Of a stretch of 6,806 nt of DNA, positions 1-6,806 are shown one piece after another; the stretch's first letter is position 1; every line of letters begins with the position of its first letter. The DNA lies in the NCBI GenBank assembly GCA_003222065.1, contig QHUV01000231.1:1-6806 (forward strand), given 5' to 3'. The DNA comes from Gemmatimonadota bacterium (GTDB lineage: Bacteria; Gemmatimonadota; Gemmatimonadetes; Gemmatimonadales; Gemmatimonadaceae). A program made the translations under genes and the position numbers. The notes under the pieces are model-generated. The model worked only from the letters and a program-made list of their open reading frames with translations. It did not search any database and was not told where the DNA came from.

Positions 1-2043
1 CGTCTCGACAATTGCCCAATCCCCGCGCGCATGCTCGAGAATGAAGGTGCTGCCGATGTTCGACGTCATGATGATCACGCTGTTTCTGAAATCCACCGTG
101 CGGCCTTGCGAATCGGTCAGCCGACCGTCGTCGAGAATCTGCAACAGGATGTTGAATACATCCGGATGCGCCTTCTCGATTTCGTCAAATAGAATTACCG
201 AATAAGGCCGTCGCCTAACGGCTTCGGTGAGCTGTCCACCCTCCTCGTAGCCGATGTACCCTGGCGGCGCGCCGATGAGCCGCGCCACGGCGTGCTTCTC
301 CATGTACTCCGACATGTCGATGCGCACCATCGCCCGCTCGTCGTCGAAGAGGAACTCGGCGAGGGCGCGGGCCGTCTCCGTCTTTCCGACGCCGGTGGGA
401 CCGAGGAAGATGAACGAGCCGATCGGCCGATGCGGATCCTGGAGGCCGGCGCGCGACCGCCTAACGGCGTCGGCGACGGCCTTCACCGCCTCGGGCTGGC
501 CGATGACGCGCTCGGCCAGCTCCGCCTCGAGCTTCGTTAGGCGCTCACGCTCACTCTCGAGAAGCCGCGTCACCGGAATGCCGGTCCAGCGCGCGACGAC
601 TTCGGCGATGTCGTCCGCGGTGACTTCTTCCTTGAGGAACTGCGGCCGCCCCTCTTTGGAGGCGAGCTTGCTCTCTGCCTCCGCCAGCTGCCTCTGTAAT
701 TGGGGGATGCGACCGTACGAGATCTCGGCCGCCTTGGCGAGGTCCCCACGTCGACTGGCCTGCTCGGCCTCGATCTTCGCCTGGTCGATCTCTTGTTTAA
801 TTTTGCCAACGGCGCCTAACGTCTCCTTCTCGCGCTGCCATTGGGCTTTCATCGCCGAAGATTTTTCTTTTAGCTCGGCGAGCTCGCGCTCGATTTGCTC
901 ACGGCGGGCTACGGCACTCGGATCTCGTTCTTTTTGCAACGCTGTGCGCTCGATCTCGAGCTGCATGATGCGACGCTCGACTTCGTCGATCTCCTGCGGC
1001 ATCGAGTCGATCTCGATGCGCAGCCGCGACGCGGCTTCGTCGGGCTGAAAGCGCCGCTCGAGCGCCGCGTCTTTCTCGACGTGCAGGCGATACTCGTCCA
1101 GCGTTGTCGCGCCGACGACGCGCAATTCGCCGCGCGCGAGCATCGGCTTGAGCATGTTGCCGGCGTCCATCGAGCCTTCTGCTTTACCGGCACCAACCAG
1201 CGTGTGCATCTCATCGATGAACACGATGTACTGCCCTTGACTGTCAGTGATCTCTTTGAGGACGGCCTTGAGCCGCTCCTCGAACTCGCCGCGGAACTTG
1301 GCCCCGGCGATGAGCGCACCGAGGTCGAGCGCCACGAGGCGCTTGTTCTTGAGACCCTCGGGTATGTCGCCGTTGACGATGCGCTGGGCGAGCCCTTCGA
1401 CGATGGCGGTCTTGCCGACACCGGGCTCGCCGATGAGCACGGGATTGTTCTTCGTGCGACGTGAGAGAACTTGAATCACGCGCCGGATCTCCTCGTCCCG
1501 GCCGATCACCGGATCAAGCTTCCCTTTCCTGGCTGCTTCGGTGAGATCGCGCGTGTATTTCTCCAGCGCTTGGTACTGGTTCTCCGGGTTCTGATCCGTG
1601 ACGCGGTGCGCTCCACGGACAGCTTCGAGCGCCTCGAGCAGACTATCGTGGGTTAGGCCGGCTTCATTGAGTAGCCGCCGAGACTCGCCTTTGACCTCGG
1701 CGAGCGCGAGCAACAGATGCTCGGTCGAGATGTACTCGTCGCCCAGTTTCTTGGCTTCCTCCTCGGCGCGGTCGAAGATCTGGTTGAGCTCGCGGGAGAG
1801 GTTGGGCTGCGCATCGCTCTGCTTCGGATAGCGCGCTATCTCGCGCTGGGTGCGCTCGCGAAGCGCGGCGACGCTCGCGCCGAGCTTCTGGAGGATCGGA
1901 ACGACAATGCTCTCTTGCTGGTCGAGCAGCGCCCCGAGGAGATGGATATCGTAGACGATCGGATTGCCGTTTCGCCGAGCGAGATTGACGGACTCGTTCA
2001 GCGCTTCGCCGGCTTTCACGGTGAGACGTTCGGCGTTGATCAT
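1..2043 (-). CDS. clpB: ATP-dependent disaggregase ClpB (Hsp100), C-terminus outside window, internal deletion in NBD1
   Basis: This is the AAA+ chaperone that, with DnaK, threads proteins out of aggregates in the cytoplasm; 681 codons are in the window. The ATG at 2043 matches the normal start, which reads [15 protein letters not shown]. In order: N-domain (about 1-145); NBD1 with Walker A GEPGVGKT at 205-212, pore loop AKFRGEFEE (Phe where E. coli has Tyr), Walker B IDE with E278, and arginines R330/R331 in LERRFQ; then the coiled-coil middle domain; then NBD2 with Walker A GPTGVGKT at 548-555, pore loop GYIGYEEGG, Walker B with E621, and sensor-1 region MTSN. By comparison with E. coli ClpB (857 aa), about 120 C-terminal residues (second arginine finger, sensor 2) lie beyond position 1. 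After LERRFQP the protein goes directly to [13 protein letters not shown], so about 59 residues of the NBD1 small domain are absent (see findings). The Shine-Dalgarno sequence is weak. The gene lies 104 bp after the lipid-transport operon. Confidence 0.97.
1039..1044 (-). other. Junction of an apparent in-frame internal deletion in clpB
   Basis: The codons read CAG CCC | GAC GAA, giving Q333-P334-D335-E336. In E. coli ClpB the same flanks (RRFQ and DEAAS) are separated by 60 residues. Those residues hold the motifs EPSVEDTIAILRGLKERYE, RYI.DR and LPDKAIDLI of the NBD1 small domain. Only one residue separates the flanks here. Walker A of NBD2 lies about 57 residues earlier than in E. coli (548 vs 605), and Walker B shows the same offset (621 vs 678), which agrees with a loss of about 59. 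The frame is preserved and there is no stop. Confidence 0.85.
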
Positions 2044-2147: not shown

Positions 2148-2843
2148 TCAGGGACGCGAGCTTGACCCGTTGACAGGCGAGCGCACTGCCGAAGCGGCCG
2201 GTCTCAGGAGCGTCGCCCGCGCCGAATCCTGCATCTGTACGATAACATCGGTCGACAGCCGCGAGAGCGCCTCGACGATCGCCGGCATCGTACCCTCGGG
2301 CACCAGGCGCTCGGCGCGGGCGGTTCCTGACCAGAGGATGGAATCGTCGCGGGCGCGAACGACCCGGGCGTCGAGCCGAACCACCGCGAACACCTGGGTG
2401 CCGCGGTCGACTTCCTCGAGCTCCCGAACCAGCCCTCGCCAGACGTAGCTATATGCGTGCGGCGAGGGCGGATCGAACACCGCGGGATCGCGCGTCATCG
2501 GTCGAGCACGGAAGATGTCCTCGGTGAGCATGCCGAGCATCGTCGGCAGCGGCACAGCCCACTCGCGATTCGGGTACGAGCCGTACGCCATGTCGTCGAT
2601 TCGATAAACGATGTTGCCGTCGCCGTAGAGTCCGGGCGTGACGTAAGGGACGATGGCCATTCCGCCGGCGAGCAGCCCGGCAGACGCCCCGTCGGCGGGC
2701 CGGGCGGAGTCCCCAAGCTGTGGCATGCGAAGCCGATAATACTCGCGGGGCGCGAGCTTGCCGTGAAAGCACGCGCCGATGCCGAGGAGGGCGACCGCGC
2801 AGAGAACGCCGGCTCGCGTTAGGCGAAGGTCATTCGCGCGCAC
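2148..2843 (-). CDS. PqiC-like ABC-transport auxiliary lipoprotein
   Basis: The product is a 231-residue predicted lipoprotein of the ABC-transport auxiliary / PqiC (DUF330) type. Proteins of this kind sit at the outer membrane and partner MCE proteins in intermembrane lipid transport. A short basic N-terminus is followed by a hydrophobic segment (11-24) ending in a lipobox, IGAC, with C25 as the probable acylated cysteine. The mature protein opens with YYRLRMP (35-41). The central stretch, 'MAIVPYVTPGLYG' then 'NIVYR' then 'WAVPLPTMLGMLTEDI' (62-110), has the family pattern of a strand, a conserved 'Y' after an RID/RES-type motif, then a helix. The start is a GTG at 2843, inside the last codons of the MCE gene, giving a 14-nt overlap and suggesting translational coupling. 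An ATG overlapping the MCE stop is in another frame. Family assignment is from pattern recognition, and the lipid substrate is unknown. Confidence 0.85.
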   Translation of the reverse strand: MRANDLRLTRAGVLCAVALLGIGACFHGKLAPREYYRLRMPQLGDSARPADGASAGLLAGGMAIVPYVTPGLYGDGNIVYRIDDMAYGSYPNREWAVPLPTMLGMLTEDIFRARPMTRDPAVFDPPSPHAYSYVWRGLVRELEEVDRGTQVFAVVRLDARVVRARDDSILWSGTARAERLVPEGTMPAIVEALSRLSTDVIVQMQDSARATLLRPAASAVRSPVNGSSSRP

Positions 2844-3765
2844 GTGGTCCCGCCGGCTTGTTGGGGAGCGCGCGCTGCTTCAACAGACTCGACGGATCGC
2901 GCTCGATGCGCTCACTCAAGCGGGCGATGTTGTCCGATGCCGCGCTGAGATTGCGGACCATCTGATCGACGCCGCCCTCCTGCGACAACGCGTCCCGGAA
3001 ATCAGCGAGCAGTGTGTGAATCTCGTGCAACGACTCGACCGCCTCACGTTGGGTGGCGGCGAGCTGCGGACCGGCGGTGCGCGTCGCCGTGTCGAGCGCC
3101 GCCATCAGACGCTCCGAACGGTCCATCAGGCGTGACAGCCTAACGCTTGCGGTGTCGACGCGGGAGAACGTGCGATCGAGCGTGCTGAAACTCGTCTGGG
3201 CACCCGTCGTGGCGATCGCGAGCAGCGTGTCCATGCGGTTGAGCGTGGCATCGATGCGCTCGATAGGCGAGGCGCGCGCAAAACGCTCGGCGCCACGCAA
3301 GAGCGTGTCGGTGCGGTCGAAGAACTCCGCGAGGCGACGCATCGCGTCCTGAAAGCTCGGATTGTCGATGGTCGGGAGCATGCTTCCCGGTGGGACGACA
3401 GCGGCGAAGCGCGAGCCCGGATCGAGATGCAGATACGGCGCACCGAGAAGACCAACCTGCGTGATCGAGGCCTTGGTGTCGGCGCGAATCGGCGTGTTGT
3501 GCTTGACGCGGAAGGCAACGATGATGCGCGTAGGATCGGCGGGGTCGATGTCCATGCGTGTGACGGTCCCGACGGGGAGACCGCCGTAGCGCACTTCATC
3601 GCCCTTGTTGAGGCCCGCGACGCTCTTGAATACGGCGCGGTACTCGATCCCAGTGCGGAAAATCCCTGGATAGCGCGCGAGCACGAGCAGCGCGGCGAGC
3701 ACGAGAAGCGTGCCGCCCAACAACCAGATGATGCCGAATCGTGTTTCGCCGCTTCGCCTTCGCAT
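2830..3765 (-). CDS. mlaD: MCE-domain lipid-transport protein (MlaD-like)
   Basis: This is the membrane-anchored periplasmic substrate-binding component of an MCE lipid ABC transporter, 311 residues. A single transmembrane helix spans about residues 10-30, followed by an MCE domain at about 41-118. Within it are GLNKGDEVRYGGLPVGTV (about 51-68) and the typical end, GLLGAPYLHLDPGS. From about 130 to 290 the chain is rich in regular helices with heptad-like spacing (FDRTDTLLRGAERF..., LDRTFSRVDTASVRL...), as in MCE proteins that form a needle or coiled-coil tail. It ends near a 'RDPSSLL' motif common in this family. I chose the ATG at 3765, which shares one base with the ATPase stop (TGATG) and lies 8 nt after GGGAG. 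A GTG directly before it (3768) would add one residue. It overlaps the lipoprotein gene by 14 nt. MlaD proteins form hexameric rings that bind lipid; that is family knowledge, not visible here. Confidence 0.93.
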   Translation of the reverse strand: MRRRSGETRFGIIWLLGGTLLVLAALLVLARYPGIFRTGIEYRAVFKSVAGLNKGDEVRYGGLPVGTVTRMDIDPADPTRIIVAFRVKHNTPIRADTKASITQVGLLGAPYLHLDPGSRFAAVVPPGSMLPTIDNPSFQDAMRRLAEFFDRTDTLLRGAERFARASPIERIDATLNRMDTLLAIATTGAQTSFSTLDRTFSRVDTASVRLSRLMDRSERLMAALDTATRTAGPQLAATQREAVESLHEIHTLLADFRDALSQEGGVDQMVRNLSAASDNIARLSERIERDPSSLLKQRALPNKPAGPRARE

Positions 3766-4541
3766 CACTCACGCTCCCGGCGATGGAGAAGGCCATGAAT
3801 CACGGGATCATCGCTCCGCAAAAGCGACTCGCGCGTGCCACGCGCGACAATGCGCCCGCCCGCCAGAACATCGATCTGGTTTGCCGGCGTGTAGGCGTGT
3901 CGAATCTCGTGCGAGAAGATCACGATTCCGAAGTCGTATTTTTTCTGCACTGCGTGGAGCGTCTCGTCGAATTCGTGAGCGGCGGGCGAGTCGAGGCCAA
4001 GCGTCGGCTCGTCCAGAAGCATCAGTCGCGGCTTGAGCGCCAATGCCCGCGCGAGTGCGACGCGCCGCTGCCCTGCTCGTCCGAGCTGAACCGGCATCGT
4101 GTCGTCGTCGACCTGGATGCCGACCTCGGCAAGCAACTCCCGCGCCGCGTCGCGAGCGTGCGCACGTGAACTGTGCTCGTGCTCGAGTAACGGCAGCTCG
4201 ACATTCTCGAGCACGCTGATGCGCCGCAGCAGTGCCGAGCCCTCGAACAACACGCCGACGCGTGAACGGAGGCGACGAAGCGCTTTGTCTTCCGGCTTTG
4301 TCGGATCGAAGGCTTCGCCGTCGACGGCGATGGTTCCCGATGCCGCGCACTCGAGTCCGACGAGATGCCGCATGAGCATCGACTTTCCCGATTGAATCGG
4401 GCCGAGCACGAGCAGCGTTTCGCCGCGTGCGACGAAGATCTCTATCTCAAAGATGATCGGCGCACTTGCCGGACCGGTGAGGTGGTGTACCTCGAGGGCC
4501 CGCTCAGAGGACGAGGGCGGGAATGAAGTAGAGGATGGCAT
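3765..4541 (-). CDS. mlaF: MlaF-like ABC transporter ATPase with divergent motifs
   Basis: This is the cytoplasmic nucleotide-binding subunit of the MCE transporter, 258 residues from ATG 4541. An upstream in-frame TTG (4562) would add 7 residues; the ATG is preferred although neither has a clear Shine-Dalgarno. It overlaps the permease by 38 nt. Motifs from this start: Walker A GPIQSGKS (47-54), with Gln where most ABC proteins have the second Gly; the Q-loop region VLFEGSALL, where E100 replaces the usual Gln; signature LGRAG followed by QRRVALARAL, where LSGGQ/LSGGM is expected; Walker B MLLDEP with D177/E178; D-loop GLDS; and switch histidine in IFSHE (H211). Length and motif spacing match E. 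coli MlaF, so the frame is sound and the differences are substitutions. Family identity rests on context and overall pattern; full catalytic competence is uncertain. Confidence 0.9.
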   Translation of the reverse strand: MPSSTSFPPSSSERALEVHHLTGPASAPIIFEIEIFVARGETLLVLGPIQSGKSMLMRHLVGLECAASGTIAVDGEAFDPTKPEDKALRRLRSRVGVLFEGSALLRRISVLENVELPLLEHEHSSRAHARDAARELLAEVGIQVDDDTMPVQLGRAGQRRVALARALALKPRLMLLDEPTLGLDSPAAHEFDETLHAVQKKYDFGIVIFSHEIRHAYTPANQIDVLAGGRIVARGTRESLLRSDDPVIHGLLHRRERE

Positions 4542-5370
4542 TGACGAGCGTGTCGGCGGCAAGCACGCCCAACAGGCAATAGACGACGGCGCGGCTGGCT
4601 GCCTCGCCGATGGCGGTCACGCGTCGATCGACGCTGAGGCCTTCATCGGACGCGATGATGGCGATGACGAAACCGAAGATGAGTGACTTCGCGACGCCAG
4701 TAGCGATGTCGGAAGTCGACAACGAGGTGCGAATCTGCTCGAGGTAGAATCGAGAGTTGAATCCGAGGAACAACGTCGTACCCACCCAGCCGCCGAAGGT
4801 GATGAACCCATCGGCGATCACCGTTAGGGCCGGCAACGCCACAAATAGCGCGGCGAGCTTCGGCGCGACGAGATACTTGACGGGATCGAGACCCATGACG
4901 CGCAGGGCGTCGATCTCCCCGCCGCTCGTCATCGCCGCGAATTCGCCGGCGATCGCGGAGGCACTGCGCGTCACGACGAGCAGGGCGACGACAAGCGGGC
5001 CGACCTCTCGTGTCGCGAACCAACCGATCGCGAGCGCACTCACCGACTCGGCGCCATACTGCTTGAGCTGATACGCAACCTGGAAGGTCGCGATGAGGCC
5101 GACGAGAATCGACGCGCTGCCGACGAGTCGTAAGGCACCGACGCCGAGGGTGTCGAGCTCCCGCGCCACGCCGCCGCTCACCACGGAGCGCGGCGAGACG
5201 ATGATCCAGGAGAGCCAATGGAGGGCACCCAATGCGACGCGTCCGCGGCTGAGAAAGCGTCCGCCGAGCCGCGTGACGCCTGTCCCCACCGACCATTCGC
5301 CGGTGAGAAAGGTGCTGCTACGCGGTGTTCGTGAACCGACGTCGCTGTTGCGCACGGGCAAGCTCATCAT
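4504..5370 (-). CDS. mlaE: MlaE-family ABC transporter permease
   Basis: This is the inner-membrane permease of the lipid transporter, 288 residues from ATG 5370. After a polar N-terminus there are about five hydrophobic segments: residues 80-102, 121-147 (with the family pattern EVGPLVVALLVVTRSASAIAG), 168-196, 225-241 and 258-283. The conserved cytoplasmic motif EIDALRVMGLDP (152-163) matches the 'E..A..VM.(V/L)DP' of MlaE/TrnI-type permeases. E. coli MlaE is 260 residues, so the chosen start still gives a longer N-terminus; a GTG at 5289 is a shorter alternative. The frame stays open to an ATG at 5427, but that codon lies in a palindromic repeat, so I did not use it. It is first in a four-gene overlapping operon. 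No clear promoter is visible just upstream. Confidence 0.93.
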   Translation of the reverse strand: MMSLPVRNSDVGSRTPRSSTFLTGEWSVGTGVTRLGGRFLSRGRVALGALHWLSWIIVSPRSVVSGGVARELDTLGVGALRLVGSASILVGLIATFQVAYQLKQYGAESVSALAIGWFATREVGPLVVALLVVTRSASAIAGEFAAMTSGGEIDALRVMGLDPVKYLVAPKLAALFVALPALTVIADGFITFGGWVGTTLFLGFNSRFYLEQIRTSLSTSDIATGVAKSLIFGFVIAIIASDEGLSVDRRVTAIGEAASRAVVYCLLGVLAADTLVNAILYFIPALVL

Positions 5371-5420
5371 GACGATGAGGTTGCAAGACGGTGGCCAGGG
5401 GCGTGGAGCGTTGGGCGTGT

Positions 5421-5502
5421 TTGTCATCCCGAGCGAAGCGAGGGATCTGCACTTGGTCGGCTAAGTGCAGATCCCTCGTCGCTACGCTCCTCGGGATGAC
5501 AA
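5421..5502. repeat. REP-like palindromic repeat (long imperfect hairpin)
   Basis: The left arm (5421-5454) begins TTGTCATCCCGAG and ends GAGGGATCTGCACTT. The right arm (5463-5502) is its complement and ends CTCGGGATGACAA. They surround an 8-nt loop. The outer 13 bp and inner 15 bp pair perfectly; the middle is imperfect because the right arm has about six extra bases (CGTCGCTACG against CGAAGC). The motif CATCCCGAGCG..GCGAGGGATC is of the dispersed palindromic-repeat type seen in many GC-rich genomes. Translation through it gives the characteristic spurious peptides 'SVATRDL' and 'FARDDK'. It lies between the broken secreted-protein gene and the transport operon. It could act as a transcription or mRNA-stability element, but no T-run follows. 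A second small palindrome (CTGCGCT C AGCGCAG, 5503-5517) abuts it. Confidence 0.9.
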
Positions 5503-5508
5503 CTGCGC

Positions 5509-5785
5509 TCAGCGCAGCAGCATTTTCTTCATGCCGGACGGGTGACCGTCGATCAAAAGCTGGCAGAGTCACGACATGACGCTGCGTCCCTGTCGCACAG
5601 GCGGGGTCTCCGACACTGAACGGGATGGTCGTCTGTTGCGAAAACGGATTCGGCTGATTCTGACCGAGCACGCCCCGCCGGTGACCGCCTTCGGCACGCT
5701 GGTCTGGCACCTGGCTCGACGCGGGCAACGCGACGAGCGCGCACGCGACGAGCCCGAGGGCAGGTGATGCCCACCGGTGGACCAT
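5509..5785 (-). pseudogene. Broken gene for a small secreted FlgD-like/sorting-domain protein
   Basis: The start ATG at 5785 follows a strong Shine-Dalgarno. The product opens with a signal peptide (about residues 1-24, MVHRWAS... ending PASSQ), then VLGQNQPNPFSQQTTIPFSVGD (39-60) and RHVVTL (69-74). The 'QN.PNPF...T.IPF' pattern is typical of C-terminal FlgD Ig-like or secretion-sorting domains. The family then normally continues with a strand-rich middle and ends with something like 'YQL.VDG...KKM..R'. That tail is present but in another frame: QLLIDGHPSGMKKMLLR, stop at 5511-5509, starting only about one codon after L74. So the middle (some 50 residues by my recollection of the family) is missing and the frame is shifted near 5562-5567. 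In the original frame, translation would run on through the palindromic repeat to 5318, which I regard as spurious. Confidence 0.7.
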
Positions 5786-5955: not shown

Positions 5956-6806
5956 TTACGTGCCACGCCAGGATCGACCTGTTGTCGTACGCATGGTGAG
6001 TCCTTGCCGATCGCAATACTCGAGAAACGGAATGAGAAACTTGCGGGAGAATCCAAGATATTCACGAAGCTCGGCAGGCGAATATTCGCGCCCCTTGACC
6101 ATACCAGCTCGTAGCCGGGCGACGAGTGACGCCAGGCCTTCGGCGGAATAAAAGCGCTCCCCCTCGACGGCAACGACGCGGCCTTCGCGCTCCAACATCT
6201 TCAACAGGTCGGAAGCTTGCACACCGAAGCGCGCCTCGAGCTCAGCGACGCTCGGTGGCTCGTGCGCGGCCTGACGAAGCGTATCGTCGATTTGGCGCAA
6301 TTTGTCGCGCTGCGCTTCGGTGAGTCGGGGCGACCAACCAAAGGCTCGAATGACACCGCCCGCCGTTTCGACGAGATGCCGCTCGGCGGCGCGCGCGAGG
6401 ACGAAGTCGATCAACTCAGCTGGCGCGGCGAGTCGCGAACGTACCTCCTGGAGCGAGACGCCGGGCTCCAGTGGACGTGCACGATGCGCTTCGTCGACGA
6501 GCCTAACGAGACGTTGCTCCAGCGAGGCCGATACGTCGACCGCGTACACGCGGCCGTTGAGCTGCAGGACCTCTTTCGGCGCGAGGAGACCCGCGAGCTC
6601 GCGCGGTAGCACGCCCAATCGCACCGGCAATGACGCGATCTCGACACCCGCCTCACCCGCCTCATTGAGGGCGAGCGAGAGTCGCTCGGCAGCCGGAGCG
6701 TGCGCGGACGTCGACCAGGGCCGCGCGCGGCGGGTGGCGAATGGATCGATGACGATGCCGCCGCCGACGGTCGCGGCGGGAGACGCCGAGCGAAGCACGA
6801 ATCGAT
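5956..6806 (-). CDS. selB: Selenocysteine-specific elongation factor SelB, C-terminal part (5' end outside window)
   Basis: SelB is the GTPase that brings selenocysteyl-tRNA to UGA codons marked by a SECIS hairpin. Only the last 282 codons are present; the frame is open to the window edge, reading R-F-V-L-R into the conserved domain III/IV junction GGGIVIDPFATRRAR. The rest is the C-terminal array of winged-helix domains. A pattern similar to other SelB proteins is seen in LEPGVSLQEVRSRL, SPRLTEAQRDKL, EPPSVAELEARFGV and the final SPAELREYLGFSRKFLIPFL followed by EYCDRQGLTMR. The last winged helix is the SECIS-binding part. The GTPase domain with its nucleotide motifs must lie beyond 6806. 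An in-frame GTG at 6798 is an internal Val codon, not the start. The stop is TAA at 5958-5956. The C-terminal part looks full-length. Confidence 0.93.
   Translation of the reverse strand, partial: RFVLRSASPAATVGGGIVIDPFATRRARPWSTSAHAPAAERLSLALNEAGEAGVEIASLPVRLGVLPRELAGLLAPKEVLQLNGRVYAVDVSASLEQRLVRLVDEAHRARPLEPGVSLQEVRSRLAAPAELIDFVLARAAERHLVETAGGVIRAFGWSPRLTEAQRDKLRQIDDTLRQAAHEPPSVAELEARFGVQASDLLKMLEREGRVVAVEGERFYSAEGLASLVARLRAGMVKGREYSPAELREYLGFSRKFLIPFLEYCDRQGLTMRTTTGRSWRGT

Follow-up and report, generated by a model that had tools for sequence, protein, structure and literature searches.

In ClpB, the small domain of NBD1 carries the middle domain. For NBD2, PMC3940203 describes a small domain that closes on the nucleotide and bears the sensor-2 arginine needed for hydrolysis. 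A real loss of the NBD1 small domain would therefore likely cripple NBD1. The gene considered here was assembled in G000, a 3.73-Mb draft genome with 736 contigs and a completeness of 81.7%, on contig C716, the whole of which (6806 nt) is the window of this study. Clp_N and two AAA large domains with their Walker A motifs were found in the assembled protein (Pfam, sequence), and together with the middle domain they align along the assembled frame with the ClpB/Hsp104 disaggregases (TIGR03346; PDB 1qvr and 6oax). Unlike in these proteins, 59 residues (177 nt) of the NBD1 small domain are missing from the assembled frame, whose C terminus, where the D2 small domain would lie, is beyond the contig. 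Intact ClpB of the same genus aligns with 6oax over residues 5 to 852.

The earlier note had described the frame as passing straight from LERRFQ to the root of the middle domain, and this is true of the assembly: P334 (1042 to 1044) is directly followed by D335 (1039 to 1041), with the break at 1041/1042 and the frame staying open. The count of 60 residues in E. coli ClpB versus one here also agrees with our alignment, in which 60 residues separate LERRFQ from DEAAS in 6oax ClpB (which we take to be the E. coli protein) and a single residue, P, separates them in the assembled one. With AAA_lid_9, the assembled ClpB scored 19.8 bits (cut-off, 22.8) and was covered at profile positions 54 to 102 only, short of a complete NBD1 lid; the intact database protein P0032 scored 120.3 bits over positions 1 to 102. 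The TIGR03346 score of 1076.2 bits was below the curated cut-off for a whole protein (1232.1), partly because the contig ends within clpB. For the same reason NBD2 cannot be called intact, as it had been: the gene exits the contig after residue 681, and ClpB proteins of the same genus are 869 to 870 residues long. Features of the gene, together with the losses found elsewhere in G000, are collected in Table 1.

Table 1. Features of the assembled clpB and other coding losses counted in G000. Positions refer to the window.
Feature	Position (nt)	Strand	Loss (nt)	Remarks
clpB as assembled	1–2043	(-)		681 aa; 3′ end beyond contig edge
GPTGVGKT in clpB	379–402	(-)		Presumed NBD2 Walker A; sequence and Pfam
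Middle (coiled-coil) domain of clpB	634–1017, approximate	(-)		Limits inferred
Junction P334/D335	1039–1044	(-)	177	Without 59 aa that relatives have; frame and alignments with relatives
LERRFQ, directly upstream of the junction	1045–1062	(-)		Presumed NBD1 arginine-finger motif; sequence
GEPGVGKT in clpB	1408–1431	(-)		Presumed NBD1 Walker A; sequence
clpC (C604)			172	Frame broken; in NBD2 small domain
Clp-like single-AAA protein (C196)			216	
Bacterial topoisomerase IB			207	Blind sample
Urocanase			178	Frame broken; blind sample
Uridine kinase family gene			202	Frame broken (by arithmetic)
Lipoprotein-like gene, no Pfam match			184	Frame broken; blind sample

The junction was compared with relatives, as the earlier note had suggested. 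In two genomes of the same genus, G001 and G002, exactly 177 nt (59 aa) more are present at the clpB junction, in flanks of 83 to 85% DNA identity. A motif scan of relative loci matched 20 of 31, every match having exactly 59 residues at this place; the other 11, several of which are clpC loci, fell outside the search pattern and are uninformative on the junction. Protein database searches were run with residues 314 to 355 (8000 candidates scored) and with the whole protein (7997 scored), and the best 120 of each were compared. In 234 of the 235 distinct matches listed, the junction holds 59 extra residues (2 of these matches do not fully span it); the sole exception, P0003, has 77. Thus, no other ClpB with the same gap, i.e., with zero extra residues, was found among these 235 matches; since a 90% cluster could hide a gapped member, this does not prove that the fused junction is absent.

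P0032, the nearest of the matches listed, comes from an independent record, is 98.7% identical to the assembled ClpB over 552 residues, and carries the 59-residue segment. P0121 and P0139 (97.3 and 97.4% identical over aligned residues) carry it as well; they differ from the assembled ClpB near their C termini. P0121 is near-identical for most of its length and then continues into a different ClpB C terminus, so that it looks like a chimeric assembly. The matches suggest that a normal ClpB exists elsewhere in this species or in one very close to it.

Within G000, a search with the clpB region of G001 (best 40 of 439 scored) matched the missing segment only to clpC-type paralogues and left the clpB 3′ end unmatched. 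A second clpB copy was looked for and not found, either among these 40 or in a separate search with 44 candidates, all of which were scored. The other G000 matches to ClpB were clpC (C604), Clp-like proteins (C210 and C196), and a weak match in C688. At first impression, one database locus, L025 (QHOS01000143.1, Verrucomicrobia MAG AV47; clpB at 4588 to 6954), appeared to have the same gap; this was dropped, as L025 is without a different stretch. Compared with 85 of 87 sequences, it lacks 68 aa (204 nt) in frame, where the NBD1 small domain ends and the middle domain begins. Given its like size, this gap may be an artefact similar to the losses in G000.

To survey the rest of the draft genome, we used blastn to align G000 contigs with segments of G001 and G002. 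A loss was counted when two alignments lay no more than 20 nt apart in G000 and the relative had 100 to 300 nt more, a size class chosen after a first look at sizes. In the blind sample (72 contigs, C1 to C72, 15 of them with 700 nt or more in alignments; 57.4 kb), there were three clean losses of 207, 184, and 178 nt, roughly one per 19 kb. The targeted sample (eight contigs, six of them aligned; 45.0 kb) contained four, of 177, 172, 216, and 202 nt, the first being that of clpB. Its contigs C604, C210, C196, and C688 were chosen through the ClpB search, and C724, C546, and C588 were picked after gaps of some kind had appeared, which makes C724 a biased pick. Overall, seven coding losses were found, all in the range of 172 to 216 nt, and the six regions other than clpB are intact in one or both of the relatives. 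These six losses are located at C3:1490, C8:4628, and C21:4674 in the blind sample and at C604:6096, C196:10649, and C724:5693 in the targeted one. Genes were named from Pfam matches on the relatives' proteins, except for ClpC and the lipoprotein-like gene, whose names are presumed from sequence. Losses of the clpB kind thus occur in unrelated genes of G000 whatever the frame, which is broken in four of the seven cases and kept in clpB and two others.

In clpB, clpC, and the C196 ATPase, lid sequence is missing, and a bias toward AAA+ small domains was considered. It was set aside because these contigs were picked through the ClpB search, while the losses in the blind sample hit urocanase, topoisomerase IB, and the lipoprotein-like gene. 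Two further gaps were seen on the targeted contigs. In clpC of L117 (G000:C604), near 5303, 18 aa between two DKE copies are absent from the middle domain in the protein alignment, corresponding to 45 nt in the DNA alignment; this is possibly a repeat collapse. In L257 (G000:C724), near 897, a purine nucleoside phosphorylase–like gene is ~187 nt short near its start compared to G001; it was not counted since the join is not clean, with 33 nt between alignments.

The same alignments revealed no 100- to 300-nt loss in the relatives. In the control comparison of G002 with G001, none was found either way in 47.3 kb, and further alignments of this pair, totalling ~53 kb (a minor share on the same contig as the 47.3-kb control), showed none when inspected by eye. 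Single G002 alignments run across the loss points in C196 and C724; in the longer alignment, G002 has a net deficit of 116 nt. A wider scan covered differences of 20 to 1500 nt, with an overlap filter that left out the joins of the window and C604. Here, G000 was also short by 23, 24, and 45 nt within alignments, by 108 nt in an intergenic region, and by 1064 nt; the relatives were short by 27, 88, 90, and 1165 nt compared to G000; and the control pair had one 305-nt difference. The 108-nt intergenic loss in C51 was not counted, nor was the 1064-nt absence in C38, which is common to G002 and therefore natural. Long stretches of G000 had no loss at all (e.g., 8.5 kb of C708, 5.1 kb of C63, and 3.5 kb of C13). 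Together with the other size differences, they indicate that losses in G000 are frequent but not everywhere.

Since six other genes of G000 are short by similar sizes and near-identical ClpB proteins elsewhere hold the segment, the clpB gap is very probably an assembly artefact, and the organism's own gene would contain the omitted 177 nt. As its alternative, the earlier note had given a deletion of this length introduced in assembly or sequence processing, and the intact near-identical proteins and the six other losses speak for it. Two pieces of an ordinary clpB would have been joined in the draft genome with the 177 nt between them omitted, perhaps when a scaffold gap, or the stretch left unsequenced between the two reads of a pair, was about that size and was closed without bases. 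The narrow range of 172 to 216 nt suggests a property of the library, for example the unsequenced stretch between paired reads. In that case, the true ClpB would be an ordinary disaggregase, its NBD1 small domain complete and carrying the middle domain. An organism that has shed 170 to 220 nt in this many unrelated genes is hard to credit; an assembly that has done so is not. Some observations count against an artefact. The clpB loss is exactly in frame, as are two of the six others, although three of seven, against the one third expected by chance, is unremarkable at such a small number. To make a join, a de Bruijn assembler must have some sequence that spans it; the two ends of the missing segment share 1 to 2 nt in register, which does not account for the clpB join. 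For joined non-overlapping reads, our literature search found no relevant paper. Technical artefacts that are read as pseudogenes, as presented in PMC11017572, are frameshifts and internal stops; the G000 cases resemble them as apparent gene damage possibly due to sequencing or assembly and differ in being clean losses within a narrow size range.

The clean in-frame junction could also reflect a true 177-nt deletion, fixed or polymorphic in the strain, that left ClpB crippled in NBD1; the gene would be a recent pseudogene, or the loss would be tolerated. In the absence of heat stress, ClpB is often dispensable. We consider a true deletion very unlikely, as losses of the same size affect six other coding regions, the frame-breaking ones including urocanase, uridine kinase, and clpC, and no protein among the matches listed has the fused junction. 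Still less probable is that a Gemmatimonadaceae lineage possesses a living ClpB in which the middle domain is fused to the NBD1 large domain, NBD1 serves only as a platform without a lid, and all the work falls to NBD2. A functional ClpB of a new architecture, with the middle domain grafted onto the NBD1 large domain, would fit the high conservation of the remaining sequence (the identity to P0032 given above), yet the matches listed include no homologue with the same junction, and we regard it as extremely improbable. The same conservation speaks against a long life without the lid, the nearest proteins among those matches being lidded and showing few differences. The lid-less ClpB of the earlier note, crippled or unusual in architecture, is therefore not borne out, near-identical proteins having the lid and unrelated G000 genes having the same type of loss. 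Its proposal that GTCGACGA-type coding at both ends could have promoted slippage fared no better. Short TCGACGA-like words are present in the G001 region, but they are not in register, and no direct repeats of at least 8 nt spaced near 177 nt were found in the same stretch of G001 or G002. Because of this, and of the 1 to 2 nt shared by the ends, replication slippage between GTCGACGA-type repeats, whether in the cell or during library amplification, has next to no likelihood.

Reading the gap as an assembly artefact removes a false lead on ClpB architecture. It also exposes a trap, in that in-frame losses of ~170 to 220 nt in a draft metagenome genome can mimic domain-deletion variants. Looking for losses of the same size in unrelated genes against genomes of the same genus is a cheap and general test.

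The rest of the contig holds other genes. Upstream of clpB on the same strand, at 2148 to 5427, are Mla-type lipid transport genes encoding MlaE, an ABC ATPase, MlaD, and an ABC_trans_aux lipoprotein (Pfam). The C-terminal winged-helix part of a SelB-like elongation factor occupies 5956 to 6804 and runs off the contig. At 5408 to 5515 lies a nested inverted repeat with 16-nt perfect arms separated by 8 nt, located within 26-nt arms that are 81% complementary.
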